Position numbers and translations under genes: made by a program
DNA from: an uncultured Algibacter sp.
Lineage (GTDB): Bacteria; Bacteroidota; Bacteroidia; Flavobacteriales; Flavobacteriaceae
Length of the DNA: 64,000 nt
Direction: 5' to 3'
NCBI GenBank assembly: GCA_947502405.1
Contig: CANMZT010000002.1
Span: 62,001-126,000 of the forward strand
Part shown: piece by piece, positions 12,438 to 61,254 of the stretch
How positions within the stretch are numbered: the stretch's first letter is position 1
Layout of the letters: every line of letters starts with the position of its first letter
The notes under the pieces: model-generated
What the model was told of the DNA's origin: nothing
Databases searched by the model: none
The model's input: the letters and a program-made list of their open reading frames with translations, nothing else

Positions 12438-12452
12438 TCCTGTTCTATACTG
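12438..12452 (-). promoter_or_regulatory. PUL direct-repeat operator A (GH78-sulfatase operon)
   Basis: In the direction of transcription the site reads CAGTATAGAACAGGA, with two CAG triplets 10 bp apart, 64 bp upstream of the GH78 start at 12374. The usual TAnnTTTG-like box 22 bp further on is not clear here. Confidence 0.7.
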
Positions 12453-12593
12453 AAAAAAAGCCATAAATTTCTTTTCTAACATTTACGAATATTGGTAATT
12501 ACTTAATTATACGTTTTATTACCAATTTCAACCTCTACAACTTATAAACTAGATTTTTTATTTTATAGGCAAGTTTTTATACTATATAATGCT

Positions 12594-14291
12594 TTAGTCC
12601 TTTCCTATATATAGTAATGCCCCAGGATATCCTTTTGGTACGTTTGATAATTCTTTATGAGGTGATTTTCGTATTTCTTTTTTAGGAACAAACGTATAAT
12701 TTATATCATACATTTTAAGCCGCTCTTCTATTGATTTTTTAAACCATGTTTTTGCAAATTCAATTTTTCTATTTTCCTTTTTTAGAATCACTAATTCTTG
12801 TTTAAATCTAACTGTGTTTTTCACTTCCCAAGTAAGATGAATTGCTATTACAATTAAAGCGTTTATAATTGTAAGAAACACCAAACTGTAGTTTGCTTTT
12901 TTATTTTTATTTGAAGCCATTCCTAAAATCAACGGGATTATAGGAATAAACCAAATTTGTGGCGCAAATCGAGCCCACCAAAAATGTTTACTTATACATA
13001 AAGAACTAATAATTGCACCGTAAACACAAAGCACCAATATGCTTTTGCTTTTATTCGCTTTTAGAAAAAACAATAGATACAACAGAGATAAAATAAATAA
13101 CCCACTAAAAAAAGGACCAAAACCCGCAACTCTAGTTTCATGAAATCGATATGCATCCCAACTTGAAACTTTAGACACAAAAGGGATAGCTAATTCAGCA
13201 TTATCCTTTTCATCGTATGGTGCATTACTTGGAGCTCCAAAATGGGCATAAAAAAACCTTACAACAAATGGTTTTTTCTGCATGTTTTTTGGGGTTTCAT
13301 GTTTTTCATTACCATCAAAACCTTGTGCCAATTGACTTGGAAACTCATCAGTTCCTAATATAGGATACAAAGGATTGCCTCGTTCTTGTAAATTACTTAT
13401 GTATGGGTTAAACCCAAAAATTAGCAAACTAATTACTGCAGTTACAATATGAACTATAACATATTCTTTAATTAAAGTTCTTCTCTTAAAAAGAATATAA
13501 ACAAACCCAAAGAATGAAAAAACAAAAACAAAAACAACTCCAGTAAATTTTACATTAATTAAACCTATAACAGCCATTACACCTATTAACAAATGGTATA
13601 AATTGTATTTTTTTAATAAAGAAAAAATGGCTACAACATAAATTGTTAAATACAAACACAACAACTGATCTACCATATATGTTGCTATTTCACTCCAAAT
13701 AACAGGGTTAAACACTAATAAAACTGATATTAAAATGCTATTTAGTTTATTTAAGTTGAATTTCCGTGAAACATCATAACTAAATAAAGCTAGCACAAAT
13801 AACACAATAAAATTTAGTGCTTTACCTGCCTCAAAAACACCAAAAGCACTATACGTAGAAGCAGCAAAATACCAAGATCCTTTAGGAAAATGAAGTATTG
13901 ATAAATCGTTATTCTTATTAAATTTTCTAATGGGTTCTTTTATTGGGTTCCAACCTTCAGTCATGTTATAAATTGCTGATTGATGGTACCATTGTCCATC
14001 CCAAGAAAAATCCCAAAAAAATGAAGCTACTAATAATGAAGCTATAATTAAAAGCAAACCAAATATTATAGATACTATGATTTGTTTTAAAGGGATTTCT
14101 TTAAAACGATCTAAAAAAAATAGCGTTAATGTTGATAGAAGTATTGATAAATAAAAAGCAGATGGTAACAGAGAACTTGTTGTTAAAAAACTTAGCATTA
14201 CTAACAAATGATTGTAGCATACAAATAGTAATAAAAAACAACATATAGATTTTAGAGAGTTATTAACTGAATTATTTTTTAAATTAAACAT
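12594..14291 (-). CDS. Polytopic membrane protein, GT-C glycosyltransferase-like
   Basis: 565 aa with about ten or more hydrophobic segments (for example ICCFLLLFVCYNHLLVMLSF, IIVSIIFGLLLIIASLLVAS, ALNFIVLFVLALFSY, FVFVFSFFGFVYILF, FSGLFILSLLYLLFF). After an early helix comes the loop DFSWDGQWYHQSAIY. It has the acidic residue in the first periplasmic loop that is typical of GT-C enzymes, which transfer sugars from polyprenyl-phosphate donors. A short soluble tail follows residue 490. The family is not identified with certainty and no substrate can be named. Its position inside the PUL, behind operator B, suggests co-regulation with ulvan degradation, which is unusual for a GT-C protein. It could also be a membrane protein of unrelated function. 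Confidence 0.6.
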   Translation of the reverse strand: MFNLKNNSVNNSLKSICCFLLLFVCYNHLLVMLSFLTTSSLLPSAFYLSILLSTLTLFFLDRFKEIPLKQIIVSIIFGLLLIIASLLVASFFWDFSWDGQWYHQSAIYNMTEGWNPIKEPIRKFNKNNDLSILHFPKGSWYFAASTYSAFGVFEAGKALNFIVLFVLALFSYDVSRKFNLNKLNSILISVLLVFNPVIWSEIATYMVDQLLCLYLTIYVVAIFSLLKKYNLYHLLIGVMAVIGLINVKFTGVVFVFVFSFFGFVYILFKRRTLIKEYVIVHIVTAVISLLIFGFNPYISNLQERGNPLYPILGTDEFPSQLAQGFDGNEKHETPKNMQKKPFVVRFFYAHFGAPSNAPYDEKDNAELAIPFVSKVSSWDAYRFHETRVAGFGPFFSGLFILSLLYLLFFLKANKSKSILVLCVYGAIISSLCISKHFWWARFAPQIWFIPIIPLILGMASNKNKKANYSLVFLTIINALIVIAIHLTWEVKNTVRFKQELVILKKENRKIEFAKTWFKKSIEERLKMYDINYTFVPKKEIRKSPHKELSNVPKGYPGALLYIGKD

Positions 14292-14649
14292 ACCTAAATC
14301 TTTATTGTTTTTTTAGTGAAAATTCAAATCTATTAAGCGCTATTTAATCTATCTTGATTTAAATAACACACTTACAAACAACTATAATTCCTTCATCATA
14401 AGTCATCATAATTCGTAAAACTTCCTTCCTAGGTACAGGATTAAAACTATGTTTTTTTACATTGTTTTATTAATTTCCTGAACTACGTTTCTTCATATCA
14501 TATTACTAAAATTATTTTTTCTTGTACTGAAAGCGCTTTGGTGTTTTGATTTTCATAACTTAAATCTAAATTAGTCTATTGAAAAATGCATCCTGCGCTG
14601 TACTGCAAATCGTTTTATTTTAATCCATAATAATTTACAGCATAAAAAA
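14292..14649. other. Intergenic leader region upstream of the GT-C-like gene
   Basis: This 358-nt stretch has no supported gene. It contains operator B and its -10-like box, so transcription towards 14291 would start near 14554 and leave a leader of about 260 nt. A 14-codon frame (14556-14512, starting MKIKTPKRFQ) begins at about the inferred start point and has no room for a ribosome binding site, so I do not call it. No recognisable riboswitch was found. Confidence 0.4.
14591..14605 (-). promoter_or_regulatory. PUL direct-repeat operator B (GT-C-like gene)
   Basis: Reads CAGTACAGCGCAGGA on the minus strand. Exactly 22 bp downstream lies TAGATTTA (14561-14568), a good match to the flavobacterial TAnnTTTG box. 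The site is between the lyase terminator and the membrane-protein gene, about 300 bp from the latter's ATG. Confidence 0.7.
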
Positions 14650-14677
14650 AGCCCAGCAAATTTTAATTCGCTGAGCT
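14650..14677 (-). terminator. Rho-independent terminator of the 820-aa lyase gene
   Basis: Eight-base arms (agcccagc 14650-14657 and gctgagct 14670-14677, one wobble) around a 12-nt loop are followed on the minus strand by a T run. The hairpin starts 24 nt past the stop codon. Confidence 0.7.
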
Positions 14678-14700: not shown

Positions 14701-17163
14701 TTATCGTACAACAAGTTTAGTATAATAAACTTTTTGATAATCGTCAGTAACCTTAATTAGATAAAGACCTGATTTAAAACGATTATTGTTCTCTACCTCT
14801 AATCTATTAGAATTTATAATATTTCTATAAACTTCTTTTCCAAGCATATCATTAATTACAACATCTGCATTACTAAACCCATTGAGCACAATATTGAAAT
14901 TTCCATTAGCAGGGTTTGGATATACCTTAACAGAAGCTATTGTTAACTGATTTTCATTAACACTAAGCGGCGCATTACTGGCTAATTCTAATTTCCATTG
15001 GCTTCTAGCATCTGTAATATCAGCTGTTTTGTTTAGGTATTCATTTACAGCTTCATGATATAAGAAATTGTTTCCATCTTTAACTGAAAACCTATAAGCA
15101 TCTTCACCTTGAATATAATAAGCGGTCCAAACTTTATCAACATCGGTATTTGGAGATGGTCTACCTGTGCTTATTATTGCATTATCGGCGCCAGAACCAG
15201 CACCTCTTAAAACGCCATTAACCTCGCTATCTATGTTATAGTATTCGCTACCACTGATAGTTGTTTTAACAAAAGTCCAATTTAAAGCATCATCACCGTT
15301 AACATAGTCACTTTCAATGACATTAGAACCTGATGACTTTAAATATTTTCCTGTAGCAATATTTTTTAATCGATATGCTTGCCCTATTAAGTCATTGGGG
15401 TCAAAAACTTCAGCATTAATAGTAATTTCAGTTGAAGATACGGTTTCATTACTTGCATTATAAGCCACGGCTTGAATAGTATATACTCCTTCGGAACCAG
15501 GTGTCCAATCTACAGAATATGGCGCAGTATTATCCTCTGCAAAATATGCTCCATTAATCAAAAATTCTACTTTGGAAATACTTCCGTTTTCGTCAACAGC
15601 ATCAGCTGAAATTTGAACTGTATCATCTATATTATACGTTTCACCTTCAACGGGAGAACTTAAGGAAACTCTAAACGGTTCTTGTTCAACATCTAAATCA
15701 ATAATTTGCAGATATAATGGCTGCGCATTACCCGATTTATCTTCCATTAAGTAATAATATGCTTTACCATTTTCTATGTGAACAACGCCATGATCATAAC
15801 GCCTTCCTCCAGTAGCCTCATAAACCTTCTCAAAATTATCAGTTCCACCTTCTGCTTTATATACAACAACACGACCGTTTTTTAAACCTACTGTATAAAC
15901 ATTGGGTCCTGATGTGTAAAAAGATCCTGCTATAGATTTTACTGTAGTTATAAACTCTGTAGTACCTGCCGGTTTGTAGGTGTGTAAGTTTTTAGTAATG
16001 TTATTATCCAAATCTCGTACCTGACTCTTAATATGTACATCTCCATTGGCGGTTACTGTCCAATCAAAACCTCCTACGATGCGTACTCTATTTGGATTTG
16101 TGGTTGCAACATAATCTCCAGGTTCCATAACTTTTATAAAATCGGCATCCCATAATGGCAGACTAAAAGATTCTCCTTTATGATTTTTCCAACCTGTGGC
16201 GGCCGTTTGATTATCTGAATAGGCATAATAAACCCCGTTTTGATAAAGATATTTGTCATTATTGTTAGCCAACCTACGTTGAAAACCTATACGAAACTTA
16301 CCGTTTACGTATTTCATATCACCGTAAAGCCCCCAGTTATAATCAATTCCGGGTTGGCTTTTTGCATTTAACCTGTTAAAATCTATGAAGTTACCCCAAT
16401 CACCAGTATTGGCATCGTATTTTATAAACTTATACATACCATTATTATTTCCACCTTCACGCATAAGCATAAAAAGGTCTCCATCGTCATTTTGGAAAAA
16501 TTTTGGGTAGGTTAATGACACAAATTCTGATTGAGCAGCAGTTCCTGGCATTCTTAAATGTTTATATCCCTCTGTACCATTTTGAACAAATTTATCCAAA
16601 GTAAAATCAGCATCTGGTAACGCAGCTGCATCTTTAACTGAATATGAATATCTAAAATAGTCATTAGCTAGACTTCCGTTAGAGGGTCTAGAGGCACTAT
16701 AGGCATGCATATCGTACAACAAATGAATTGTACCGTCTAAAGGACTTATACCTACAGCTATGGTATTATGAGATTCTCCTATCCAAGGTTTGTTTTGAAA
16801 ACCTGTATGCCTATGAGGAAACTCAATTGTTGCTGAAGTCCCTGTATTTGTGTTATACCTGGTTAACATTACATGACGATCTGATTCACCACCTCTATAC
16901 CAAGTCATAAAAACATAGTCTCCATAAGTTTTTATACAATCTCCATGAGCAGAAATGTTTCGTCCAAAATAAAAATCGTAAGAACTTCTATTTCCATCAT
17001 CTGAATTAAATTTTGTGCCACTTGTTACTTTGCTACCATTAAAATGCAAACCTAAATCGGTGATTTTAACTTCTTTTTCTAAAACAACTTGACTGCTTAA
17101 AACACAAGGAAACATCAACAATACCCATAACAGAGTATAAGTGTAAGAATAACTTTTTTTCAT
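14701..17163 (-). CDS. Ulvan lyase-like BNR_4 propeller (PL24/PL25 type) with ricin-like and T9SS domains
   Basis: 820 aa. After a signal peptide (to about residue 24), residues 25-490 form a seven-bladed propeller of the BNR_4 type used by ulvan lyases PL24 and PL25. H153 (YDMHAY), Y219 (SLTYPKFF), R235 (LMREGG) and Y275 (DYNWGLY) match, in kind and spacing, the His/Tyr/Arg/Tyr active site I recall for the PL25 enzyme PLSV_3936. It should cut ulvan by beta-elimination next to a uronic acid. Next come an Ig-like domain (about 500-590), a ricin-type beta-trefoil-like domain (about 596-730, GQAYRLKNIATGKYLKSSGS...WKLEL), and a T9SS type A sorting domain (VKVYPNPANGNF... to the end). The protein is therefore secreted or surface-attached. 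The propeller is nearly identical to that of the gene at 17974-20163. The start codon is the last of three tandem ATGs. Confidence 0.85.
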   Translation of the reverse strand: MKKSYSYTYTLLWVLLMFPCVLSSQVVLEKEVKITDLGLHFNGSKVTSGTKFNSDDGNRSSYDFYFGRNISAHGDCIKTYGDYVFMTWYRGGESDRHVMLTRYNTNTGTSATIEFPHRHTGFQNKPWIGESHNTIAVGISPLDGTIHLLYDMHAYSASRPSNGSLANDYFRYSYSVKDAAALPDADFTLDKFVQNGTEGYKHLRMPGTAAQSEFVSLTYPKFFQNDDGDLFMLMREGGNNNGMYKFIKYDANTGDWGNFIDFNRLNAKSQPGIDYNWGLYGDMKYVNGKFRIGFQRRLANNNDKYLYQNGVYYAYSDNQTAATGWKNHKGESFSLPLWDADFIKVMEPGDYVATTNPNRVRIVGGFDWTVTANGDVHIKSQVRDLDNNITKNLHTYKPAGTTEFITTVKSIAGSFYTSGPNVYTVGLKNGRVVVYKAEGGTDNFEKVYEATGGRRYDHGVVHIENGKAYYYLMEDKSGNAQPLYLQIIDLDVEQEPFRVSLSSPVEGETYNIDDTVQISADAVDENGSISKVEFLINGAYFAEDNTAPYSVDWTPGSEGVYTIQAVAYNASNETVSSTEITINAEVFDPNDLIGQAYRLKNIATGKYLKSSGSNVIESDYVNGDDALNWTFVKTTISGSEYYNIDSEVNGVLRGAGSGADNAIISTGRPSPNTDVDKVWTAYYIQGEDAYRFSVKDGNNFLYHEAVNEYLNKTADITDARSQWKLELASNAPLSVNENQLTIASVKVYPNPANGNFNIVLNGFSNADVVINDMLGKEVYRNIINSNRLEVENNNRFKSGLYLIKVTDDYQKVYYTKLVVR

Positions 17164-17199: not shown

Positions 17200-17230
17200 G
17201 TAAAGATACCTTTATTTTATCGGGAAACTA

Positions 17231-17245
17231 TACTGCACAATACTG
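17231..17245 (-). promoter_or_regulatory. PUL direct-repeat operator C (820-aa lyase)
   Basis: Reads CAGTATTGTGCAGTA in the direction of transcription. TATCTTTA (17201-17208) follows after exactly 22 bp, and the start codon at 17163 is 68 bp from the site. Confidence 0.75.
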
Positions 17246-17973: not shown

Positions 17974-20163
17974 CTACTTTTTTATTACTTTAATAAATAC
18001 TGGTTTCTTTGAATTCACTTTTACGAAATAGATACCATTAGGTTTATCAGCTAAACTCAATTGTACCTTTCCAGCGTTTACTGAAAACGTTTTAGAAACT
18101 ATTAATTGAGATTGTATATTGTACACTTCTAAATCTATGGTGTCTATACTATTTGGAATATACATTTCAAACAAACCGTTAGTAGGGTTAGGATATGCTT
18201 TTATATTTTCTAACAGACTAATTGTTTTTGACATTTCGCCTTGACAAGCTTCTTTACTCTTTATTTGAATAATGTCGCCATCGCTAATATCTAAAGTAAA
18301 ATTAGTTTGGTAGGTTTCAAATAATTCCATTCCATTTTTTAACACAGTGTATGGTGCTTCACCTGATGATACAGAAACCTTTGCTGATTTTTTATTTATA
18401 CTTATTTTACCACTTAATTTTGGAGCAGCTTCAACTGTTACTTGATAACAATGGCTAAAATCTTTTCCTACAACTTCTATACATAAATCGTAAACACCGG
18501 GGGTAATACCTTCAATAGTTTTATCTTTAGTAAAACTATACTCTACACCATCTATAGTAGCTACATACTCATCTACTGCGTTACCACTAATTATTAGCTT
18601 ACCATTATTCATCCCAGAACATGTCTCACCTTTTGCCTGAATTGTAAAATTATTAGGTCCTAATGGATCTGTAGGTACAATATCTAAATCTATAATTTGT
18701 AGATATAAAGGTTGTGCACTACCAGAACTATCTTCCATTAAGTAATAGTATGCCTTACCATTTTCTATATGTACAACGCCGTGATCAAACTGTCTTCCGC
18801 TAGTAGCCTCATAAACCTTCTCAAAATTATCAGTTCCACCTTCAGCTTTGTATACAACAACCCTTCCGTTATTTAAACCTACTGTGTAAACATTAGGTCC
18901 TGAGGTGTAAAAAGATCCTGATATAGATTTTTCTGTAGTTGTAAACTCTGTAGCACCTGCTGGTTTATAGGTGTGTAAGTTTTTAGTAATATTATTCTCC
19001 GTATCTCGTACCTGACTCTTAATATGTACATCTCCATTGGCGGTTACTGTCCAATCAAAACCACCAACAATATAGACCTGATCTTTCTGTGTAGTCTGCA
19101 CATAGTCTCCAGGCTCCATAACTTTTATAAAATCTGCATCCCATAGTGGTAGACTGAAAGATTCCCCTTTATGATTTTTCCAACCTGTAGCGGCCGTTTG
19201 ATCATCTGAATAGGCATAATATATCCCGTTTTGATAACGATATTTATCATTATTATTAGCCAACCTACGTTGAAAACCTATACGAAACTTACCGTTTACG
19301 TATTTCATATCACCATAAAGTCCCCAATTATAATCAATGTCTGGTTGACTTCTTGCATTCAATCTATTAAAATCTATGAAGTTACCCCAATCACCAGTAT
19401 TGGCATCATATTTAATAAATTTGTACATACCATTGTTGTTTCCACCTTCACGCATGAGCATAAAAAGCTCTCCACTATCATTTTGGAAGAATCTCGGGTA
19501 GGTTAATGATACAAATTCTGATTGAGCAGCAGTTCCCGGCATTCTTAAATGTTTATATCCTCCTGTACCATTTTGAACGAATTTATCCAGAGTAAAATCA
19601 GCATCTGGTAAAGAAGCTGCATTTTTAACAGAATAGGAGTATCTAAAATAATCATTAGCTAGACTTCCGTTAGAAGGTCTTGAAGCACTATAAGCGTGCA
19701 TATCGTACAACAAATGAATTGTTCCGTCTAAAGGACTTACACCAACAGCTATGGTATTATGAGATTCTCCAATCCAGTATTGATTTTGATATCCCGTATG
19801 CCTATGAGGAAACTCTATAGTTGCCATGGAGCCTGTTTTTGTATTATATCGTGTTAGCATTACATGGCGATCTGCTTTACCGCCACGATACCACGTCATA
19901 AAAACATAATCACCATAGGTTTTTATAGCATCTCCATGAGCAGAAATATTACGTCCAAAGAAAAAATCATAAGGAGCGTTATCTCCTGTATTTGAAGTAC
20001 CACTAGAAACTTTACTACCATCAAAATGAAGGCCTAAATCTGTGATTTTAACTTCTGTTTCTAAAACTACTTGAGCATTTAAAATGCCTGTTGGTATTAA
20101 TAAAGACAAAAGGACAAATAAAAAGCCTTTTTTTACCAAATTAATAGAGTAATTTTTTTTCAT
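17974..20163 (-). CDS. Ulvan lyase-like BNR_4 propeller (PL24/PL25 type), T9SS-secreted
   Basis: 729 aa with a signal peptide ending near NAQ31. The propeller (about 32-495) is almost the same as that of the 820-aa lyase and keeps the same presumed catalytic set: H156 (YDMHAY), Y222 (SLTYPRFF), R238 and Y278. The C-terminal part differs. It has one beta-rich domain (about 505-645, with NFTIQAKGETCSGMNNGKL and VTVEAAPKLSGKISIN) in place of the Ig-plus-ricin pair, then a T9SS sorting domain (IKAYPNPTNGLFEMYI...VKVIKK). It is predicted to depolymerise ulvan outside the cell. It has its own operator D and is followed by the FN3 lipoprotein. Confidence 0.85.
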   Translation of the reverse strand: MKKNYSINLVKKGFLFVLLSLLIPTGILNAQVVLETEVKITDLGLHFDGSKVSSGTSNTGDNAPYDFFFGRNISAHGDAIKTYGDYVFMTWYRGGKADRHVMLTRYNTKTGSMATIEFPHRHTGYQNQYWIGESHNTIAVGVSPLDGTIHLLYDMHAYSASRPSNGSLANDYFRYSYSVKNAASLPDADFTLDKFVQNGTGGYKHLRMPGTAAQSEFVSLTYPRFFQNDSGELFMLMREGGNNNGMYKFIKYDANTGDWGNFIDFNRLNARSQPDIDYNWGLYGDMKYVNGKFRIGFQRRLANNNDKYRYQNGIYYAYSDDQTAATGWKNHKGESFSLPLWDADFIKVMEPGDYVQTTQKDQVYIVGGFDWTVTANGDVHIKSQVRDTENNITKNLHTYKPAGATEFTTTEKSISGSFYTSGPNVYTVGLNNGRVVVYKAEGGTDNFEKVYEATSGRQFDHGVVHIENGKAYYYLMEDSSGSAQPLYLQIIDLDIVPTDPLGPNNFTIQAKGETCSGMNNGKLIISGNAVDEYVATIDGVEYSFTKDKTIEGITPGVYDLCIEVVGKDFSHCYQVTVEAAPKLSGKISINKKSAKVSVSSGEAPYTVLKNGMELFETYQTNFTLDISDGDIIQIKSKEACQGEMSKTISLLENIKAYPNPTNGLFEMYIPNSIDTIDLEVYNIQSQLIVSKTFSVNAGKVQLSLADKPNGIYFVKVNSKKPVFIKVIKK

Positions 20164-20231
20164 AGTTTATCTTTTCACATTGACAAGAAAGATTTTTAAA
20201 TACAAATTTAGACAATTTGATCAAAAAAGTG

Positions 20232-20246
20232 TCCTGTAGTATGCTG
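20232..20246 (-). promoter_or_regulatory. PUL direct-repeat operator D (729-aa lyase)
   Basis: Reads CAGCATACTACAGGA in the direction of transcription. TAAATTTG (20203-20210), a perfect TAnnTTTG box, follows after 21 bp. The ATG at 20163 would then have a leader of about 33 nt. Confidence 0.78.
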
Positions 20247-20732: not shown

Positions 20733-21593
20733 TTATTGCTTTACAATCTTTTTTGTGTATGAACCATTATCTCCTTGCATTTTTACAAGATACATACCAG
20801 TTGATAAAGCACTTACATCAATATTAAGCTCAGATCTCTCATTTACTTCTCTAGAGATTACTTCTTTACCTAATAAAGAATATACTGATACTTGTTTAAC
20901 ATTAGCAGTAAGCCCTTTAATGCTTAACTCATTATTATTAACTGGGTTAGAAATAAAAATTGAACTTGTATCAAAATCTGCAGTACTTAATAAAGCTACT
21001 AGGTGGTAATCAATAACATCTATTCCTCCACTATCGAATTGTACAGGGTCACCTGCTGCTGATGGAATTACACCATATCTTGAATTAGTTACACCGTCTG
21101 CTAATTGAATAAACAATGCATTGTTTTTCGGTCCTGATGGATTTGCTCCATTAGAGTCAGGATCTCCATTAGCGTCTACTTTAGCTTTTCTTCTTTGGAA
21201 CTGATCCAAACCAGACCAATCACCTGCGCCATTCGATTCTGGAAGTCTTTGCTCAACAGTAAGTGTAACATCTGGATAATTTGCAGACTCAGCTACACTC
21301 ATACACATCGTCCAATCAATTCCACCTGCATTTGAAGTAATTTCCATTAAGCCAGCAGAAGCTGGTGATCTATGGCCTACTATAGACCAAACTTGTGTAG
21401 GATCATCTCCTGGTAATTCTGTAGCCCATTCTAATTCACCGGTACTACCATTAATTGTCATAAATAAATTAGTCCCTCTTGCGCCTATTTTATACGTACC
21501 ATCTCCACACCATAATATAGGTTGAGCTTGGGCTTGAATCGCAAACAGGGCAAATAATAAAAATGCACTAAATTTTAATGTAATTTTTTTCAT
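20733..21593 (-). CDS. Small T9SS-secreted protein, ricin-like N-terminal domain, function unknown
   Basis: 286 aa with a signal peptide ending AIQAQAQ. Residues 25-205 form one beta-rich domain (GTYKIGARGTNLFMTI, ELEWATELPGDDPTQVWSIVGH, WTMCMSV, NNALFIQLADG). The opening resembles ricin-type or fascin-type beta-trefoils, so carbohydrate binding is possible, but I do not recognise the family. A T9SS type A sorting domain follows (SIFISNPVNNNELSIKGLTANVKQVSVYSLLGKEVISREV...KKIVKQ). No catalytic residues can be proposed. The gene stands alone behind a triple operator and ends in a strong terminator, which is typical of an abundant single product. It could be a secreted ulvan-binding protein. 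Confidence 0.65.
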   Translation of the reverse strand: MKKITLKFSAFLLFALFAIQAQAQPILWCGDGTYKIGARGTNLFMTINGSTGELEWATELPGDDPTQVWSIVGHRSPASAGLMEITSNAGGIDWTMCMSVAESANYPDVTLTVEQRLPESNGAGDWSGLDQFQRRKAKVDANGDPDSNGANPSGPKNNALFIQLADGVTNSRYGVIPSAAGDPVQFDSGGIDVIDYHLVALLSTADFDTSSIFISNPVNNNELSIKGLTANVKQVSVYSLLGKEVISREVNERSELNIDVSALSTGMYLVKMQGDNGSYTKKIVKQ

Positions 21594-21644: not shown

Positions 21645-21669
21645 CTCTGTAGTATCATGTACTATCCTG
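21645..21669 (-). promoter_or_regulatory. PUL operator E, triple direct repeat (286-aa protein)
   Basis: Three repeats 10 bp apart read CAGGA, CATGA and CAGAG along the minus strand (21669 to 21645). A -10-like box TATATTTA is at 21624-21631. It lies 23 bp after the middle repeat, close to the 22-bp spacing seen elsewhere, and 13 bp after the last one. Confidence 0.65.
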
Positions 21670-21783: not shown

Positions 21784-23958
21784 CTATTGTACCGTTAAAG
21801 TTACCTTTTTTAAATCTTTTTCTAGTGATGAAGCACCGACAGAAATTGTAAATGTCCCAGGTTCTACGACTTTTTTCATCTCTTGGTTCAATACATTTAA
21901 CTCATCAAAACCTAAATTAAAAGTTACTGTTTTGGTTTCACCTGGTTTCAAAGTAATACGCTCAAAACCCTTTAATAGTTTTAAATATCGACCTACCGAA
22001 GCATAATCATCTCGAACGTACATTTGAACAACCTCATCACCTTCACGATCGCCCGTATTAGTAACTTCAACTGAAACCGAGGTTGATTCATCAGCATTAA
22101 TAGTAGTATTTTCTAATTTTGGTGTACCATATTTAAAAGTAGTATAGCTTAAGCCATATCCAAACGGAAATAATGGTGATTTATCTGCATCTTTAAATAA
22201 ACCTTTACCAGAACCTATAAAATCTGGACGCTCTAAATAGGTTACAGGAACCTGCCCTACAGATCTTGGAAAAGATACTGTAAGCTTACCTCCAGGATTT
22301 ACATCACCAAATATAGCATCTGCAATAGCATCTCCAGAACGCATACCTAAATACCATGTTTCTAAAATTGATGGAATATTTTCTGAAACATAATTGATAG
22401 ATAAGGGTCTTCCATTAATTAAAACAGCAACAATAGGTTTACCTGTTTCATGGATTGCTTTTACCAATTCTTGCTGCACACCATATAAATTTAAATCGGC
22501 TCTATCTACACCTTCACCACCAGTTTTTCTTGAACCACCTATAACTAGAACAACTGCATCAGACTTTTTTGCTGCTGCAATTGCTGCGGGAAAACCTGCT
22601 TTAGAATTACTTAATAAATCACAACCTTTTGCATAGTTAATTTTTACTTTATCTCCAACTTTAGCTTTTATTCCATCTAAAGCTGAAACATAAAATGGTG
22701 GTAAACCGGAGTAGCCTCCTAATAAAGAATACGTTCCTTTTGCAGGTCTTTCTTCATGAGCATTTGGACCAATTACAGCTAAAGATTTTATGTTAGACAT
22801 ATCCAAAGGCAATACGTTATTATCATTTTTTAATAAAATAATTGCTTTTTTAGCCATTTCATAAGAAAACTCTTGGTGTTCTTTTTTACCAGCATTTACA
22901 GTTTTGGTGTCTATCGCTTTTGGTTCTGCATCAAATAAACCCAAATTATATTTTGCAGTTAAAATACGAGAAGTTGCTTTGTCAATATACTTCAACAATT
23001 CAGGATTCTGCGTAATTGTATCTTTTAATACTTTGGAATTGTATGCAGCTAGCTTTTCGTTCTTTCCAATAACTAAGTCCATATCAACACCCGCTTTTAA
23101 TCCTAAAAGAGCTGATTTAGTTCTAGTATCTGCAATAAAATGCATAGTACCTAATCTTGCAACGTCATTATTATCAGAAACAATAAAGCCATCAAAACCT
23201 AGTTCATCTCTTAAAATATCTTTTAACAACCAAGTATTCATGTGGTTTGGAACTCCATTATAATCTTGATGCCCTGGCATAACCGCACCTACTCTTGCTT
23301 CTTTAATAGCAGCCTCAAAAGGTGGTAAGTAAACCTCTCTTAATCTACGTTCTGACATATCACTAAAACCACCATTAATACCTCGTCTGTTTTCTGGATA
23401 TCCTATAAAATGTTTTGCAGTTGCTATTACGTGATTCTCATCAAATCTTTCATCACCCATACCTTGTAAACCTTGAATAAATGCAACACCCATTCTAGAC
23501 ACCAAGTAAGGATCTTCTCCATAAGATTCTTCTACACGTCCATATCTTGGGTCTCCAGAAATTACATCTAAATTAGGCGAATACGTATGAGTAACTCCTA
23601 AAGCTCTCGCTTCTATAGCTGTTTGTGAAGCCATTTTTTTAACCAATTCAGGTTGCCAAGTAGAGGCAGCTGCAATAGCTTGAGGATACACAGTTGTATT
23701 ACCATAATAATCTAGTACAAGCCAAACTCCATGTAGTGCTTCTGCATATTTCATGTACGGTATTCCTAATCGTTCGTTTGCTGGAGCATCTTGCGTCATT
23801 TCTGCAATTTTCTCATCCAAAGTCATTTGGCTTATAAGGTTCTCAACTTTTGATGCAATTTCAGAATCTTTCTTACTTGTAGTTGTATCAGTTTTATGTT
23901 CTGATTTACAGCTAAATAATGAGGCTACAACACATGCAACAACTAATAATTTCTTCAT
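21784..23958 (-). CDS. GH3 beta-glycosidase (beta-xylosidase/beta-glucosidase), lipoprotein
   Basis: 724 aa with the lipobox VASLFSC (Cys17). The GH3 N-terminal barrel spans about 40-360. It includes ALGVTHTYSPNLDVISGDPRYGRVEESYGEDPYL and KHFIGYPENRRGINGG, and D262 in GFDGFIVSDNND is the nucleophile. The alpha/beta sandwich domain follows (IILLKNDNNVLPLD, LAVIGPNA, VVLVIGGS), then a C-terminal FN3-like domain (about 630-720, TGDREGDEVVQMYVRD). In an ulvan locus a beta-xylosidase role is the best guess. It starts 31 nt downstream of the GH5 gene and shares its promoter. Confidence 0.9.
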   Translation of the reverse strand: MKKLLVVACVVASLFSCKSEHKTDTTTSKKDSEIASKVENLISQMTLDEKIAEMTQDAPANERLGIPYMKYAEALHGVWLVLDYYGNTTVYPQAIAAASTWQPELVKKMASQTAIEARALGVTHTYSPNLDVISGDPRYGRVEESYGEDPYLVSRMGVAFIQGLQGMGDERFDENHVIATAKHFIGYPENRRGINGGFSDMSERRLREVYLPPFEAAIKEARVGAVMPGHQDYNGVPNHMNTWLLKDILRDELGFDGFIVSDNNDVARLGTMHFIADTRTKSALLGLKAGVDMDLVIGKNEKLAAYNSKVLKDTITQNPELLKYIDKATSRILTAKYNLGLFDAEPKAIDTKTVNAGKKEHQEFSYEMAKKAIILLKNDNNVLPLDMSNIKSLAVIGPNAHEERPAKGTYSLLGGYSGLPPFYVSALDGIKAKVGDKVKINYAKGCDLLSNSKAGFPAAIAAAKKSDAVVLVIGGSRKTGGEGVDRADLNLYGVQQELVKAIHETGKPIVAVLINGRPLSINYVSENIPSILETWYLGMRSGDAIADAIFGDVNPGGKLTVSFPRSVGQVPVTYLERPDFIGSGKGLFKDADKSPLFPFGYGLSYTTFKYGTPKLENTTINADESTSVSVEVTNTGDREGDEVVQMYVRDDYASVGRYLKLLKGFERITLKPGETKTVTFNLGFDELNVLNQEMKKVVEPGTFTISVGASSLEKDLKKVTLTVQ

Positions 23959-23989: not shown

Positions 23990-25381
23990 TTAAAAATTTC
24001 GCAGCCCTGGAACTACTTTTATATTTAAAACCTCTTTGGTTTTAGGCCATTTTAAAACGATTAATTTTTGAGTATTGGCATCCCAAATATAATCTGTTGG
24101 ATTGATTTCTTTGTCTAATTTATAAACTTCTAGCCCAACATTTTTTATAGGGTTGTAATATAGTACTGTTTTGTCGCCTATTAATACTGAAAACCCATCA
24201 GGATAATGCCTATTAGCACCAATAAATATTTTTGAAGCGCCTTTGGTATTATCTGGTTTAATATTTAAATTTAAAGTTCTAGTAGCATGATTAAATAGAA
24301 AAGATTGAATATCTCCAGCTATAGATTGCGGAAATGGTCTTGATATTACATCGGTAATATATTTACGTTCTACAGTACCAGCATCTGTTTTATCACTAAA
24401 AATTGACCATGTTGAAGGGCCTCCTGGTAAAAAGTTTTGCATGGTTCTATTACCTAAAAACCAAGCCTTTATAGAACCTACACCCATTTGGTCAAAAACC
24501 TCAGCGGTTCTTATGTAAAGTTCTCTATATTTTAATTGTCCTAATTTGCCTTCTACCAAAGTATCTGTTGTAGCAAATGTTGGAAAACCCCATTCACCTA
24601 TTAAAATAGGCGCTTTTAACATATCTGATTCTTTATCAAACCTATCCATATTTCGTTTGATATAATCAATATCATTTTGGTAAATGTGTGGTGCAAAAAC
24701 TATATTTTTTCTGTTAATTGGTGCTGTTATTTCTGAATATTGATTATTGTCTATCTTTTCACCTTTATTCATAAAGATAGATTGAAACAGAATTAATTTA
24801 TCAGCATTTATTTTTTGACTTTCATCTATAATTTTTTGATAAAGCGGAATTAGGTATTTATTGGTTAAGTCTTCATAAGAAATATCCATTGTTAACTTTC
24901 TAGGTTCGTTAACCACATCATAGCCCAAAACTGAAGTTTCATTAGAATAACGGTTCCAAATGACTTTCCAAGCATCTATATACGTTTGATATTCATTTTT
25001 TTTATTTTGCCAGAACTCTTCCCAAACAAATTTATCTACACCGTAAACCGTCATTTTAAAAACTGTTTTAATGCCTTTGTTTTTTCCTAAAGCAACAAGA
25101 GTATCTAATTTTTTAAGATAATTAGGTTCAAGTTCTCCTCCAGGAAAGTTACTTAATTTTCCAAGCTCCAAACGTATAACTTGAGAATTGGCACCCATCC
25201 TCACCATTCGTGCATAATCATCGCTATTAAAGAAAACCTCTCCTGCATGATCATTGGTGTTTACTACAAAACCTCTTGGAATAATATGACGACCAATTTC
25301 ATCTCGGAGTCCATGTTTTATTTGAGAAAAAACATTTAAAGAAATCAAAGAAAAAACAAAAAGAATTATTTTAATTTTCAT
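23990..25381 (-). CDS. GH5-family glycoside hydrolase with C-terminal beta domain
   Basis: 463 aa from the ATG at 25381. A GTG at 25399 would extend it by six residues, but it overlaps the inferred -10 box, so I reject it. The signal peptide is MKIKIILFVFSLISLNVFSQ. The clan GH-A barrel has the acid/base E159 in GYDVVNEPR, H232 in FAPHIYQND and the nucleophile E263 in LIGEWGFP. This layout, plus the extra domain after about residue 350 (FPQSIAGDIQSFLFNHATRTLNLNI...), resembles endoglycoceramidase-like GH5 enzymes. The substrate is uncertain, since GH5 is not a core ulvan family. It is the first gene of the GH5-GH3 unit behind operator F. Confidence 0.8.
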   Translation of the reverse strand: MKIKIILFVFSLISLNVFSQIKHGLRDEIGRHIIPRGFVVNTNDHAGEVFFNSDDYARMVRMGANSQVIRLELGKLSNFPGGELEPNYLKKLDTLVALGKNKGIKTVFKMTVYGVDKFVWEEFWQNKKNEYQTYIDAWKVIWNRYSNETSVLGYDVVNEPRKLTMDISYEDLTNKYLIPLYQKIIDESQKINADKLILFQSIFMNKGEKIDNNQYSEITAPINRKNIVFAPHIYQNDIDYIKRNMDRFDKESDMLKAPILIGEWGFPTFATTDTLVEGKLGQLKYRELYIRTAEVFDQMGVGSIKAWFLGNRTMQNFLPGGPSTWSIFSDKTDAGTVERKYITDVISRPFPQSIAGDIQSFLFNHATRTLNLNIKPDNTKGASKIFIGANRHYPDGFSVLIGDKTVLYYNPIKNVGLEVYKLDKEINPTDYIWDANTQKLIVLKWPKTKEVLNIKVVPGLRNF

Positions 25382-25428
25382 GGTATATTTATGAACCACT
25401 AATTTAGAAATCCTGCTTGTATATTGTA

Positions 25429-47836: not shown

Positions 47837-47868
47837 ATTTTATATCTAATTGAAGTTATTAGTACACT

Positions 47869-47953: not shown

Positions 47954-47970
47954 AAAAATTCGTTGATTCA

Positions 47971-51375: not shown

Positions 51376-51421
51376 AATCTCTTTTTTTTTTGGAAGTTAC
51401 GTTGAATAAAAGTAAAAAGTG

Positions 51422-51436
51422 TACTGCACACTACTG
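51422..51436 (-). promoter_or_regulatory. PUL direct-repeat operator I (clan GH-A gene)
   Basis: Reads CAGTAGTGTGCAGTA on the minus strand. TAACTTCC (51392-51399) follows after exactly 22 bp, and the start at 51375 is 47 bp from the site. Confidence 0.75.
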
Positions 51437-51867: not shown

Positions 51868-53565
51868 TTATTCTGGTATTAACTCTAATAGTTTAACAGC
51901 ATGAGGCTCTAAATCTACTTTAAGTATAAGGCTTCCTTCACCTTTAATCACCAATGAATCGGATACTGTTTTTGGTAGTTTTGCTAAACCTTGGTATTTA
52001 GACAAATTAGCACTTAATACATTTTTCCATCCATCACCAAATCTATCTGATATCCTGTTTCCATAAATACGTCCATTAGTATCTTCAGACACACCAGCAG
52101 CTCTTAGATCTTTATAAAGTTCGTGCATCATAATACCGTTATTTTTATCTACTGTCCATTCGCTCATTTTCCATGTATTTCCACTTGAAATGAGACCTCC
52201 TTCTAGTTTAGGATAAATGATACGACTTGAAGTACTAGTTCTAGATGGGTTGTGATTGTATACTAATAAATATATAACATCACCCTTAACAACTGGAATA
52301 ACACCAGCGTAACCACTAAAATTATCTGTTGCTTCTAGTTTATTACCGCCTTCCATTTTTTGGAACATGCGCATTACGTTTTTTCTACCTTGAGGCATAT
52401 CACTACCTTCTATTTCTTGTCCCCAATCATAAATCTCATTAATTCTATATTCATGAACCATATCACCTACTGTAGCGTACCAACTTGCGCCCAATTCAGT
52501 GGCATCAGACAAGCTCAAACCACGTGTTCTATTTTCATCTCTAAGTATTCCAAATTCTTGAATATCTAAAGGAATGTTACTAAACTGCGGATAGCTATTT
52601 AATTTATCTCTGTAGCGCTTAATTTTTCCTGGTAAAGCAACAGTGTTTTGGTCTATCTTTTCGTAGTAAGAAATACTAAAGAAATCCATTTGGGTTCCCT
52701 TTTCACCAGTTACATAATTAGTACCATTAGCACAATGATCGATTAACTCTGTTGTAAATGTAGCAGCACTAGATTCGGTTAGCATATTTCCTGGACCAAC
52801 GATAGCGTCTGGAATCACTTTTAAAACCTCATCAACAGTAATATCATAATGTTTAAAATATTCTTGCATTGTTCCATTCCAATGGTTAGGTGTATAATTG
52901 GGCTCTGTACTTACTCTAAATCGCCAATTTTTAACCTGTTGCATACCAAATTCGTTTACTAGTGTAGTTAAAAATGCATTTACGTACTGCCTCCAATGAT
53001 CATAATTATCCGGAGGACTGGTATTTCCGTAGGTATTTACAACCTTATTAGCAACCATTTCCCATGGTACTTTACTCAAAACAATTCTTGGTTTAAAACC
53101 GGTACTTAAAAAATTTCGCATGGTAGAAACCAGGTCTGTAAAATCAGTGATTATATTTCCTGAAGCATCAACACCTTTGTAATACATATTAAGGTTATCT
53201 GTTCTCCCTCCCATTGACCTAACCAAGTTATAACTTTTAACATAATCTTTGATAGGTTGTAAAGAGTTTCTAAAATTTGAACCATTAAATCGGGATTGAT
53301 TTATCATAGGTCGAGTAGACCAAAAATTATAAAATTCTCCTATTACTGCACCAGTGTTTATAGTAGCTATTTTGCTGGCATCAATATCGGCTTCGTTTAT
53401 GGCTACCGGTTCTGCGGGTTCTTCAGGTTCTTCTGGCTCTTCTGGTTCAGGGTTTTCTATAATTTCCTTCACCATTTCTTCATCTTTAGAACATGTATAT
53501 AATAATGTAAATGATATTATAGACATAACGAATACGAGCAATCTTAGTGTTTTTATTTTTTTCAT
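51868..53565 (-). CDS. GH39-family glycosidase, lipoprotein
   Basis: 565 aa with the lipobox SFTLLYTC (Cys25), then an acidic proline-rich spacer (ENPEPEEPEEPEEPAEP) suited to a surface-exposed position. The GH39 barrel follows, with acid/base E221 in WRFRVSTEPNYTPNHW and nucleophile E337 in IPLDIQEFGILRDE. A C-terminal beta-sandwich starts near residue 430 (GDVIYLLVYNHNPSRTS...). GH39 members are beta-xylosidases, iduronidases or related enzymes, and a GH39 is present in described flavobacterial ulvan loci. Here it may act on the uronic acid or xylose side of ulvan. It has its own operator J. Confidence 0.85.
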   Translation of the reverse strand: MKKIKTLRLLVFVMSIISFTLLYTCSKDEEMVKEIIENPEPEEPEEPEEPAEPVAINEADIDASKIATINTGAVIGEFYNFWSTRPMINQSRFNGSNFRNSLQPIKDYVKSYNLVRSMGGRTDNLNMYYKGVDASGNIITDFTDLVSTMRNFLSTGFKPRIVLSKVPWEMVANKVVNTYGNTSPPDNYDHWRQYVNAFLTTLVNEFGMQQVKNWRFRVSTEPNYTPNHWNGTMQEYFKHYDITVDEVLKVIPDAIVGPGNMLTESSAATFTTELIDHCANGTNYVTGEKGTQMDFFSISYYEKIDQNTVALPGKIKRYRDKLNSYPQFSNIPLDIQEFGILRDENRTRGLSLSDATELGASWYATVGDMVHEYRINEIYDWGQEIEGSDMPQGRKNVMRMFQKMEGGNKLEATDNFSGYAGVIPVVKGDVIYLLVYNHNPSRTSTSSRIIYPKLEGGLISSGNTWKMSEWTVDKNNGIMMHELYKDLRAAGVSEDTNGRIYGNRISDRFGDGWKNVLSANLSKYQGLAKLPKTVSDSLVIKGEGSLILKVDLEPHAVKLLELIPE

Positions 53566-53621
53566 AATCCTTCTTTATTTAGCAATTGAAACAAAAATAA
53601 TACCTTATTTACAGAAAACAA

Positions 53622-53636
53622 CCCTGTAGTGTCATG
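53622..53636 (-). promoter_or_regulatory. PUL direct-repeat operator J (GH39)
   Basis: Reads CATGACACTACAGGG on the minus strand. A perfect TAnnTTTG box, TATTTTTG (53592-53599), follows after exactly 22 bp. Confidence 0.75.
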
Positions 53637-58104: not shown

Positions 58105-60960
58105 TTAGCGTTTTAAATATTTGATTTGATACTCTCCAGAGCCCAAAATTACGACTCCATCTGTAATTTCAATGGTGTTGTTTTCTTTAAATTCTGAAAT
58201 AGGATCGCCATTGATTTCAAGACTTTCTAATTCTGAAGATGTCAAGATAATTCTAGCTTTTGTGTTAAATGGTACTTCAAGATTCATATTCAACATATTA
58301 TCCTCGGTATTCCATTTGTTAGTGATATTGCCGTAGGGTGTTGGCACCAATACTTCAGTTTTTGTAATAGCATTTGGAAATTCAGGGTTCACAATAAACT
58401 CCTTAAACCCTGGCTTATCTATTGATGATTGAATACCTCCTAAAGACTCGTAAAAATAAGTTGCAAAACCTGTGTGCATTGGATGATTTAATGAGTTTGT
58501 TGGTCCTTCCATATCTTCCCATATAAACTGACGCTCTGGCCATGTGGTGAATCCAGAATTCATCACGTAAGTTTGACTTGGAAAATCTGGCGTGGTAAGT
58601 ATTTGATGCGCTAAATCTGCTTTACCATATTTTGTCAACACCGTATAGATGTATCTATTACCATGTATCCCAGTTGAATGATGACCACCTTTTACGGCAA
58701 CAATATCATGAGCTAAACCATTTACCACATTTTCAATTTCATTTTCTGGAACCATAGCAAATTGTAGGGCTTGTACCGTTGCAGTTTGACTTTGGTACCA
58801 CTTGTGTTTTGTGTTTGGTATATCCACCAAAAATTCTTTATTGAAAGCCTTTTTTAGAGCTTCCTTTTCTGCTTTCATAGTAGCTTCATAAGCTTTATCA
58901 TTATTCATTTTAGCAAAACGTTCCATAATGCCTAAAATATCATAAAAATAGGCGTTTGCCGAAATAATTGGGTCACATTCCATAGCTGATGGATTTTTAC
59001 GTCTGTCCCATAATGGCGGACACCAATCGCCCATACCATCTTGCATAATCCCGTTTTCACCTTTAAAATTTAAATAAAAATCTGTTAACCCCTTCATAGG
59101 CTGATAATAATCTTTTACAATCTCATCATCGCCATAGAACTTATAATTATACCAAGGTAGATACATGGTTGCCACACCCCAATCTATCTTAGCATAACTT
59201 GATGTACGTTTTCCAGGAGCAATCATTGTTGGTACTTGAAATTTAATTTCTGGATTATTATGCCCTTTAGTTGGGCGCATTTGCGTTTTTATATCTTCCA
59301 TATATTTCTTGTAGAAATCATACATATCGTAATTATATAGTGCATACTCGCAAAATGCATGAGCATCTCCTAACCAGCCACATTTTTCGCGATGCGGACA
59401 ATCTTCTGGGATACCGTGAATATTATCCACAATAGTCCATTTACTTATGTTATGCATTTTATTTAGGAAGTCATCAGAAGATATAAAACTACCTGTTTCT
59501 TGAATATCGGTTGCAACCAATACTGCTTCTATCATATTAGCATCTGGTTTTGTAGTAACACCTTTTATCTTCGCATACCTAAAACCATGGTAACTAAATT
59601 TTGGCTCCCAAGATTCAACACCATCTCCCTTACAGATGTACTCATATATCTGTGGCATACCATTGGCTCCTCCTCCTGTTGAACCTTGGTAAATATCTTT
59701 TCCATTGGTTAATAAAGCCTCGGTGGTTATAATTTCAATGAATTGCCCTTCTTTTTCCTTTACATTTAACTGAATCCAGCCCGCAATATTTTGTCCAAAA
59801 TCTACAATCCATTCGCCATCGGCTCCTTTAAATACCTTTTGAGGTTCTAAAACCTTCAACTTTTTGATAGCAGGCATTTGTTGGGCACTAATTTTTTTAA
59901 TTTTAGGTGAAGTTTCTTTGGCTGTTCCCCAATTTTTGTCATCATATCCAACGGTTGCCCAATCTCCTAATTCAAATCTGGCATCATAGGTATCACCTCC
60001 ATAAATATTATTGAATACGATAGGACCAGTAGATTCTTTCCATGTACTATCTGTATAAAAGTCTTCTTCAGAACCATCGCTATATTTAAGCTTTACCAAA
60101 AGCTTAACGGTTGGCGGGCCATAAGCCAAATCTCTATCCGACTCAGGGTCACGTTTCCATGAAATATTTTGCCCGTAAAAGCCATTACCCAAAATAATTC
60201 CAAAGGCATTTTTTCCAGATTTTAGGTTTTCTTTAATATCATACTTTACATAATAGGCCTGTTTGTCGTAGTTAGATGGCGCTGGATCTAACACATGGTC
60301 GCCCACTTTTTCGCCATTTAAATACAGCTCATAATAACCCAAACCACAAATATATGCCTCAGCTTTTGCAACAGTTTTTTCAACCTCAACTTCATTTCTA
60401 AAATAGCTTGCGGGAAAGCCATCAACAGGTTCGGGTTTATCCATACGTCCAGTTTTATAATCTCTAAATCGGTACGGTGAAGTCCTAGTATCATTATTTA
60501 GTGTAATCCATTTAGAGTCTCCCCAATTTTCGTTGGTCATTAAACCCATTTGGAATGTTTGCGTATCAGACCAACGAGAGACTGTACCTTCTTCATCCCA
60601 AATCTTAACTTTCCAAAAGTAAGTTTTCAAAGCTTCCAAAACTTCGCCTTGAAACTTCACAAAAGTAGATTTATCACTTTTTACTTCGCCAGAATTCCAA
60701 ATATCAGCATCATTTTCGTTTAACTGGTATTCAGATGATGCCACTAAAATATGATATGCAGATTGAGATTTATTGAAGCCTTCTGCATTAGTAATCCAAG
60801 AAAATAAGGGTTTTTCACTTTCTATTGTTACAGGGTTTTCTTTTGAATTGACAGTTAGTTTTTCAAAAGAAACTGCATTACTAGGTGTTGGCACTTGATT
60901 ACAGGATAAACCGAAAACAGCTAAAAATAGTAATGGAAATAGTGTTTGTTTTTTTATCAT
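58105..60960 (-). CDS. GH78 alpha-L-rhamnosidase, lipoprotein (divergent third copy)
   Basis: 951 aa with the lipobox VFGLSC (Cys20). The domain order is that of GH78: FN3-like domain, two beta-sandwich domains (AEAYICGLGYYELYLNGEKVGDHVLDP, GNGFYGQNISW), the (alpha/alpha)6 barrel and the C-terminal beta domain (TPYGNITNKWNT). The catalytic region reads GIPEDCPHREKCGWLGDAH near residue 521, and the base-containing region reads TTWPERQFIWEDMEGPTNSLNH near 813. Both differ from the DCPQRDER and WERWNS forms of the copies at 6828 and 9579, so this is a separate GH78 subgroup. First gene of the GH78-GH43-sulfatase-DUF1080 operon, behind operator K. Confidence 0.92.
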   Translation of the reverse strand: MIKKQTLFPLLFLAVFGLSCNQVPTPSNAVSFEKLTVNSKENPVTIESEKPLFSWITNAEGFNKSQSAYHILVASSEYQLNENDADIWNSGEVKSDKSTFVKFQGEVLEALKTYFWKVKIWDEEGTVSRWSDTQTFQMGLMTNENWGDSKWITLNNDTRTSPYRFRDYKTGRMDKPEPVDGFPASYFRNEVEVEKTVAKAEAYICGLGYYELYLNGEKVGDHVLDPAPSNYDKQAYYVKYDIKENLKSGKNAFGIILGNGFYGQNISWKRDPESDRDLAYGPPTVKLLVKLKYSDGSEEDFYTDSTWKESTGPIVFNNIYGGDTYDARFELGDWATVGYDDKNWGTAKETSPKIKKISAQQMPAIKKLKVLEPQKVFKGADGEWIVDFGQNIAGWIQLNVKEKEGQFIEIITTEALLTNGKDIYQGSTGGGANGMPQIYEYICKGDGVESWEPKFSYHGFRYAKIKGVTTKPDANMIEAVLVATDIQETGSFISSDDFLNKMHNISKWTIVDNIHGIPEDCPHREKCGWLGDAHAFCEYALYNYDMYDFYKKYMEDIKTQMRPTKGHNNPEIKFQVPTMIAPGKRTSSYAKIDWGVATMYLPWYNYKFYGDDEIVKDYYQPMKGLTDFYLNFKGENGIMQDGMGDWCPPLWDRRKNPSAMECDPIISANAYFYDILGIMERFAKMNNDKAYEATMKAEKEALKKAFNKEFLVDIPNTKHKWYQSQTATVQALQFAMVPENEIENVVNGLAHDIVAVKGGHHSTGIHGNRYIYTVLTKYGKADLAHQILTTPDFPSQTYVMNSGFTTWPERQFIWEDMEGPTNSLNHPMHTGFATYFYESLGGIQSSIDKPGFKEFIVNPEFPNAITKTEVLVPTPYGNITNKWNTEDNMLNMNLEVPFNTKARIILTSSELESLEINGDPISEFKENNTIEITDGVVILGSGEYQIKYLKR

Positions 60961-61051
60961 CGTATTTACTAATTTATGGGTAGAGGTTAAAGGATATAAT
61001 TGTAAAAGGTATTATTGACCTGAAAGATAATACTGTGTCAAATGATTCTTA

Positions 61052-61066
61052 TCCTGTACTCTCATG
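61052..61066 (-). promoter_or_regulatory. PUL direct-repeat operator K (GH78-GH43-sulfatase operon)
   Basis: Reads CATGAGAGTACAGGA on the minus strand. TATCTTTC (61022-61029) follows after exactly 22 bp, and the ATG at 60960 is 92 bp from the site. Confidence 0.75.
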
Positions 61067-61239
61067 TTTTTTATACCGCGTAAATATTTTGAATGTTACG
61101 AAAGCTCTTTATTCAAAAAATATTTCAGGCCATTAATTTCTTGTTATTAGTTATTACTGAGGTAAAACCACAAGCATAATATGGATTAACAGTAATGTAA
61201 TCAAACACTTATCGAAAAAGGCAAAAAAAATATCAAATA

Positions 61240-61254
61240 CAGGTAAGTACAGGA
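61240..61254 (+). promoter_or_regulatory. PUL direct-repeat operator L (PL28-like lyase)
   Basis: Reads CAGGTAAGTACAGGA on the plus strand, with CAG triplets 10 bp apart. No convincing TAnnTTTG box lies 22 bp on. The start codon is 95 bp downstream. Operators K and L serve the divergent pair of units. Confidence 0.68.

Follow-up and report, generated by a model that had tools for sequence, protein, structure and literature searches.

The window analysed here is a 64,000-nucleotide stretch of contig C2 (C2:62001-126000) from an uncultured Algibacter sp. with a genome of 3.79 Mb in 81 contigs. It carries a polysaccharide utilization locus (PUL) for ulvan, with a PL28 lyase, a lyase-like gene with an ulvan-lyase trefoil domain, GH78, GH43, GH3 and GH5 genes, sulfatases and SusC/SusD. 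Twelve direct-repeat sites lie upstream of genes in this window. We conclude that they are probably operators of a flavobacterial L-rhamnose regulator, a GntR protein with a LacI-like sugar domain, acting as an activator. We do not put this more strongly because the statement includes activation and has to leave room for the same protein acting as a repressor. As read from the DNA, the motif is well defined, stands at a fixed distance from the promoter, is specific genome-wide and conserved across genomes, and is linked to GntR genes and to rhaDA. The sites are tied far more closely to the GntR regulator, and to the rhamnose operon, than to the hybrid two-component system (HTCS) adjoining the PUL, to which the first-pass annotation had assigned them.

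Operator sites and promoter geometry

All twelve sites that had been described are present in the sequence (in the first-pass annotation, a minus-strand coordinate is the low end of a 15-mer). They are given here as 18-bp sites, each with its TAnnTTTG-like box. A spacing of 22 bp means that the 18-bp site ends 19 bp before the -7 box.

12435-12452, minus strand: operator CAGTATAGAACAGGACAG, before GH78 gene 9579-12374; weak box GATATTGC at 12415-12408, 22 bp
14588-14605, minus strand: operator CAGTACAGCGCAGGATGC, before open reading frame (ORF) 12594-14291; box 14568-14561, 22 bp
17228-17245, minus strand: operator CAGTATTGTGCAGTATAG, before ulvan-lyase-like gene 14701-17163 (BNR_4, PLH30 trefoil); box 17208-17201, 22 bp
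20229-20246, minus strand: operator CAGCATACTACAGGACAC, before BNR_4 gene 17974-20163; box 20210-20203, 21 bp
21652-21669, minus strand: operator CAGGATAGTACATGATAC, repeats 1-2 of three, before the gene for a protein with a type IX secretion system (T9SS) tail, 20733-21593; best box 21631-21624, 23 bp
25426-25443, minus strand: operator CAGTACAGTGCAGGATAC, before GH5/GH3 genes (23990-25399, 21784-23958); box 25406-25399, 22 bp
30285-30302, minus strand: operator ACGGTAAGTACAGGATAC, before SusC/SusD (27144-30224, 25526-27133); box 30265-30258, 22 bp; weak first half
30358-30375, plus strand: operator CAGGATAGAACAGGTTAC, before GH115_C gene 30443-31696; box 30395-30402, 22 bp
51419-51436, minus strand: operator CAGTAGTGTGCAGTACAC, before a gene with a carbohydrate-binding module (CBM), 48415-51375; box 51399-51392, 22 bp
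53619-53636, minus strand: operator CATGACACTACAGGGTTG, before GH39-like gene 51868-53565; box 53599-53592, 22 bp; weakest site
61049-61066, minus strand: operator CATGAGAGTACAGGATAA, before GH78 gene 58105-60960; box 61029-61022, 22 bp
61240-61257, plus strand: operator CAGGTAAGTACAGGATAG, before PL28 ulvan lyase 61349-62377; weak box GAAATTAT, 22 bp

The pattern CAGKAYAGTRCAGGAY, composed once the motif was known, has 11 matches in the window at up to 3 mismatches, each at an already reported site. Shuffles give a mean of 2.51 matches and a maximum of 7. The twelfth site, 30288-30302, lies outside these 11 and, as had been described, is good only in its second half. Leave-one-out weight-matrix scores of the twelve sites range from 10.6 to 26.2, and the best match in 124 kb, once the reported sites and three new ones in the flank are set aside, scores 12.7. 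The sites at 30302 (12.3) and 53636 (10.6) fall below this value. They would not stand out alone and are carried by their position and box.

When the twelve sites are aligned, the motif is sharp, and a second, distinct signal, TAnnTT, stands 37 bp from the start of the site. The repeat pattern first described holds, but not its length of 15 bp: the conserved site is the 18-bp CAGKAYAGTACAGGAYAS. It consists of tandem half-sites, CAGKAYAG-TA-CAGGAYAS, two 8-bp halves arranged head to tail at 10-bp pitch. The fixed distance claimed for the box is also found. At spacing 22, at least five of the six letters of TAnnTTTG are matched at 7 of the 12 sites and at least four at 8, and at each of the other spacings from 14 to 33 one site at most matches five or more. 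The details given for single sites agree as well: the 20246 site (minus strand) has its box at 21 bp, while the sites at 12452 (minus) and 61240 (plus) show only A..TT at the expected place. The triple repeat at 21645 is likewise present; of its repeats, the upstream pair (21669-21655) probably functions as the operator, and its best box is one base off, at 23 bp.

The consensus of 104 sites from outside this genome is again CAGKAYAGTACAGGAYAS, then TAnnTTTG. These sites were deduplicated and selected by a box at 22 bp (at least 4 letters), so the conservation of the box among them is partly selection. Class II activators sit near -41. Between site and box no -33 element is seen in the 104 sites, since no position there exceeds 0.27 bits. 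The TAnnTTTG box of Flavobacterium psychrophilum lies at -12 to -5 (PMC9723704), which places the site centre near -41. With the start site taken from that box, the fixed position of about -41, in place of a -33 element, is the one expected of a class II activator.

Half-sites were profiled over 30 sites on C2, namely 27 scoring at least 16 and three of lower score that were retained by hand (C2:176850, 40320 and 227509); two others with scores of at least 11 (C2:149017 and 2245) were left out. Forward half-sites stand at 0 and 10. The palindrome typical of GntR operators is not seen, the reverse-strand half-site being low at the offsets examined. Since some GntR proteins are known to use direct repeats (PMC4494728), the missing palindrome does not exclude membership in this family. 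Half-sites so nearly identical, at 10-bp pitch, fit a pair of winged-helix domains lying next to each other on one helix face. The in-phase direct repeats, the fixed promoter geometry and the activator-like placement proposed earlier are borne out, with a box of the sigma-A type.

ORF 12594-14291 begins about 260 bp past the transcription start expected from the 14605 site (minus strand), and the gap between this promoter and the ORF has stops in all three frames. The transcript therefore probably has a long leader or a short upstream ORF.

The regulon in this genome and in other Flavobacteriaceae

The matrix of the twelve sites identified three new sites in 60 kb of flank (scores 21.6-27.1), each with an exact TAnnTTTG at 22 bp. 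A 51-bp sequence model was built from these 15 sites and run against the whole 3.79-Mb genome, with 150 of 3654 first-look candidates scored. There are 26 matches at E<=0.1, 25 of them on C2, a contig of 370 kb that makes up about a tenth of the genome. The matches to which the model had not been trained show the same concentration (11 of 12 on C2). Among the 47 matches listed at E<=10, C2 holds 29 and the other contigs 18. When C2:2001-245000 was scanned with the matrix, 27 matches scored at least 16, of which 26 are intergenic; the exception, at 158272, is in an ORF's TTG extension, the first ATG of that ORF being 47 codons in. Four divergent gene pairs have two sites, one facing each gene. 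The idea of a single regulon with genome-wide specificity is borne out by these scans.

The first-pass annotation took the motif to define a PUL regulon; sites occur beyond the PUL as well. Among the targets is the L-rhamnose operon, which encodes a bifunctional rhamnulose-1-phosphate aldolase/dehydrogenase, an isomerase-like protein, an FGGY kinase and a class II aldolase. Two sites lie between this operon and divergent genes for FBPase and for the regulators GntR B and GntR C. Others are found before lactate-utilisation-like genes (CCG and LUD proteins) and before a xylose-isomerase-like gene (with a Pfam score under its cut-off). Further targets are the GntR D gene, PL28 lyases and a sulfatase-GH78 fusion. 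These targets fit the sugars of ulvan. The fusion protein (C2:180948-184475) has 1175 aa; this domain make-up was reported for P36 of Formosa agariphila (PMC8511951).

We examined 148 other Flavobacteriaceae genomes, of which the 51-bp model matches 31. A close relative of GntR C is present in 30, rhaDA in 32, and an HTCS DNA-binding domain at least 50% identical in 10. Site and GntR occur together in 27 genomes, the site alone in 4, the regulator alone in 3 and neither in 114 (p=4e-22). The figures for rhaDA are 27 both, 4 site only, 5 rhaDA only and 112 neither. For the HTCS domain they are 9 both, 22 site only, 1 domain only and 116 neither (p=2.4e-6). The GntR cut-off (E up to 2.9e-80) was placed by eye at a gap in the list after the list had been viewed, and a distant rhaDA in G135 (33%) was excluded. 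Among the four genomes with a site and no close GntR (G019, G141, G026 and G041), G019 has GntR D with a site at its own promoter, and the match in G141 resembles a hairpin.

The rhaDA promoter is readable in 31 of the 32 rhaDA genomes (the gene is at a contig end in G002). As expected of a rhamnose regulon, 28 of these 31 promoters have a site with a box of at least 5/6 letters at 22 bp; 25 of the 28 sites score at least 18.4 and three score 8.2-10.1. In G127 the site stands before an intervening rhaT gene rather than directly at rhaDA. The two genomes with rhaDA and no site at its promoter, G024 and G037, are also the two rhaDA genomes without a close GntR; G024 has a match scoring 17.3 more than 1 kb from rhaDA, with no box at 22 bp. 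The family scan, and a scan of the order that matched 22 of 296 genomes including our own (five belong to another family), used stricter filters by which weak sites are lost (G001 has a 22.2-score site at rhaDA and no model match).

The same association is seen at named GntR loci, taken as the best 80 of 254, some of which share a genome or genus. A site is present in 67 of the 80 and in 55 of the 56 loci that bear rhaDA. The sites number 111 over 844 kb, compared with 5 in one Markov control. Counted without tie-breaking towards 22, the box has at least 5 letters at spacing 22 for 95 of the 111 sites, and at any other spacing from 10 to 35 for at most 4. An ORF starts on the same strand 20-350 bp downstream of 105 sites, a divergent ORF lies upstream of 52, and only one site is inside a long ORF. 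When the best locus of each genome is taken (29 loci), inspection shows 5 in which rhaDA and GntR genes diverge with the site between them.

Two nearby regions lack the operator. No site occurs at 34.9-48.4 kb of the window, an island within the ulvan PUL (34962-48387) that encodes SusC/SusD, a peptidase S51, an aminotransferase, L-PSP and an AsnC/Lrp regulator, and is probably a separate nutrient locus. GH106, GH78 and RhaT genes directly right of the window also have no site.

Candidate regulators and competing explanations

Two candidate regulators adjoin each other at the left end of the window.

1-1336, minus strand: HTCS, N-terminal part; Reg_prop, Y_Y_Y, HisKA, HATPase, REC and AraC domains; the rest lies left of the window
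1533-2573, minus strand: GntR A, candidate regulator; GntR winged-helix and LacI/periplasmic-binding-protein (PBP)-like effector domain

Of the three close GntR copies in the genome, A lies in the window, and B and C adjoin the rhamnose operon. GntR A is 53-54% identical to B and C, and 33% identical to GntR D. The winged helix exceeds the Pfam cut-off for GntR (27 bits) in A (47.2 bits), B (44.9) and D (31.9), which places these proteins in the family; C is assigned by its 68% identity to B rather than by Pfam scan. Peripla_BP_3 is above cut-off in A (28.4 bits) and D, with none reported for B. A C-terminal domain of this LacI/PBP-like type characterizes the AraR-like subfamily. The AlphaFold model of GntR A (predicted local distance difference test, pLDDT, 91.4; predicted template-modelling score, pTM, 0.74) has a winged helix and a sugar-binding LacI-like domain, and its best PDB structural matches are mostly LacI-family regulators and ribose-binding proteins. 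The residues LSRDTV, at the start of the third helix, are invariant in A-D.

In the mechanism that we propose, rhamnose or a derivative released from ulvan would be sensed in the cytoplasm by GntR. The bound dimer, on half-sites at 10-bp pitch and thus on the same helix face, would contact RNA polymerase. Extracellular lyases, rhamnosidases and SusC/D would thereby be switched on by GntR, along with the pathways for rhamnose, lactate and xylose. The three copies A, B and C may divide this task. A fuller version seems to us evenly poised between right and wrong: the GntR-LacI hybrid would be a class II activator through which a cytoplasmic end product of ulvan directly drives the surface polysaccharide machinery across 215 kb, with or instead of the HTCS, and members of the family would autorepress where the operator is at the transcription start. 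Orthologues of GntR D (22 loci, L140-L161) bear on the last point. A variant of the type CAGAACAGAACAG, in a pattern composed after the sequences had been viewed, lies upstream of the gene in 17 of the 22 and exactly 5 nt past its own -7 box in 13, which looks like the position of an autorepressor.

Several points weigh against control by an activating GntR protein. The variant after the box is absent in our own GntR D and its four nearest relatives (G070, G044, G132 and G145); by inspection, these five loci have a sequence like an ordinary site upstream instead. The best box is off 22 bp at 8 of the 30 C2 sites (scan of +-8), one of them a tie. The co-occurrence statistics carry no correction for phylogeny, and including G037 (3.5e-75) would give one more genome with the regulator only. 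The HTCS domain co-occurs significantly with the site too. So does rhaDA, about as well as GntR, and therefore presence and absence alone cannot separate regulator from target; other points decide. GntR A has no site within 1 kb. Its position beside an HTCS is kept in seven other loci in Polaribacter, Hyunsoonleella and Flavicella (L162-L168), mostly with sulfatases, and five of the seven have no operator within 5 kb. Since these five are among the 13 site-less loci, we make no claim of autoregulation for GntR A.

It is possible, if unlikely, that GntR bound at the sites represses and that rhamnose lifts the repression; the spacing would then be fixed because the site overlaps the -33 region. 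Many GntR proteins, indeed most, are repressors. The variants 5 nt past the -7 box of GntR D genes look repressive, and a GntR protein of Zobellia, AusR, is cited as acting in this way (PMC8073546). However, a repressor has no need of the 22-bp spacing found at 95 of 111 sites, or of one oriented copy per promoter as at the four divergent pairs, and no -33 element is seen for it to block.

An unlinked regulator that co-occurs with the rhamnose operon might bind the sites, as the near-equal co-occurrence of site with rhaDA and with GntR would allow. We consider this improbable: GntR adjoins the site in many genomes, and the motif variant occurs in GntR D promoters even in genomes without a rhaDA match (e.g., G017 and G099). 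DeoR- and OmpR-type factors were weighed on account of the 10-11 bp repeats, with no genome-wide search for such genes.

The first-pass annotation had the AraC domain of the HTCS bind the sites and activate the PUL. The HTCS is intact and has this domain, it adjoins the PUL, and the conserved pairing with GntR A and the 9 of 10 genomes in which a close HTCS domain accompanies the site (the tenth, G010, has no site at the cut-off used) also speak for it. AraC-type activators bind near -40, which fits as well. Recognition of the sites is not supported, however. No close HTCS domain is present in 22 of the 31 site-bearing genomes, and G064 has the site, GntR and rhaDA with no match to the domain at E<=1e-15; the site is associated with the domain and does not track it. 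The motifs of Bacteroides HTCS comprise two sites, on average 21 bp apart (PMC3878776), but here the second copy at 21 bp is missing: across the 30 C2 sites, half-sites give no signal at -21, -11, 21 or 31, and no 21-bp repeat occurs from -60 to +79. Near-identical half-sites would also be ill-suited to the two different helix-turn-helix motifs of one AraC monomer. On co-occurrence and spacing we reject the HTCS as reader of these sites, which is very improbable, and it may still act on the PUL via another site. A second HTCS (C2:211555-215595), 45% identical to the first, lies near glucuronate isomerase and xylose-like genes.

Relation to known systems

For the PULs of marine flavobacteria, the nearest HTCS often serves as a guess at the regulator. 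The operator logic described here points instead to a cytoplasmic monosaccharide regulator that would couple the breakdown of ulvan outside the cell to the metabolism of rhamnose, lactate and probably xylose. With a motif of this strength, ulvan and rhamnose regulons can be annotated in many Flavobacteriaceae.

AraR of Bacillus subtilis combines a GntR winged helix with a LacI-like domain and is the repressor of arabinose genes. GntR A has the same two-domain layout, and the DNA-binding domain of the arabinose metabolism transcriptional repressor (AraR) is among the PDB sequence matches (4egy, E 3.2e-7). Whereas AraR represses, the GntR protein here is associated with 10-bp direct repeats upstream of the promoter, in a geometry like that of an activator.

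In the open-licence literature searched, in the portions available, we found no flavobacterial GntR protein that regulates genes for rhamnose or ulvan. AusR of Zobellia galactanivorans, compared by its description rather than its operator, is similar in that a GntR protein controls an algal polysaccharide system in a flavobacterium, and differs in being cited as a repressor of alginate catabolism (PMC8073546). The L-rhamnose regulators RhaR/RhaS, of the AraC, DeoR and LacI types, have the pathway in common. A survey of rhamnose regulons names these three types, and a term search of its main text gives no GntR (PMC3870299). The DeoR-type RhaR resembles our system in its motifs with 10-11 bp direct repeats (PMC3870299), while RhaR of Bacteroides is of the AraC type with 21-bp repeats. 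The HTCS motifs of Bacteroides thetaiotaomicron are likewise direct repeats in PUL promoters, but with an average of 21 bp between sites (PMC3878776) against 10 bp here, and with a different regulator. MocR/GabR/PdxR, NanR, NagQ, FarR and TauR all place GntR DNA-binding domains on direct repeats (PMC5320631, PMC4494728). MocR proteins differ in having an aminotransferase-like domain, and the direct-repeat groups of GntR proteins differ in motifs and targets. MocR members activate their targets and often repress their own genes (PMC5320631, PMC4494728).

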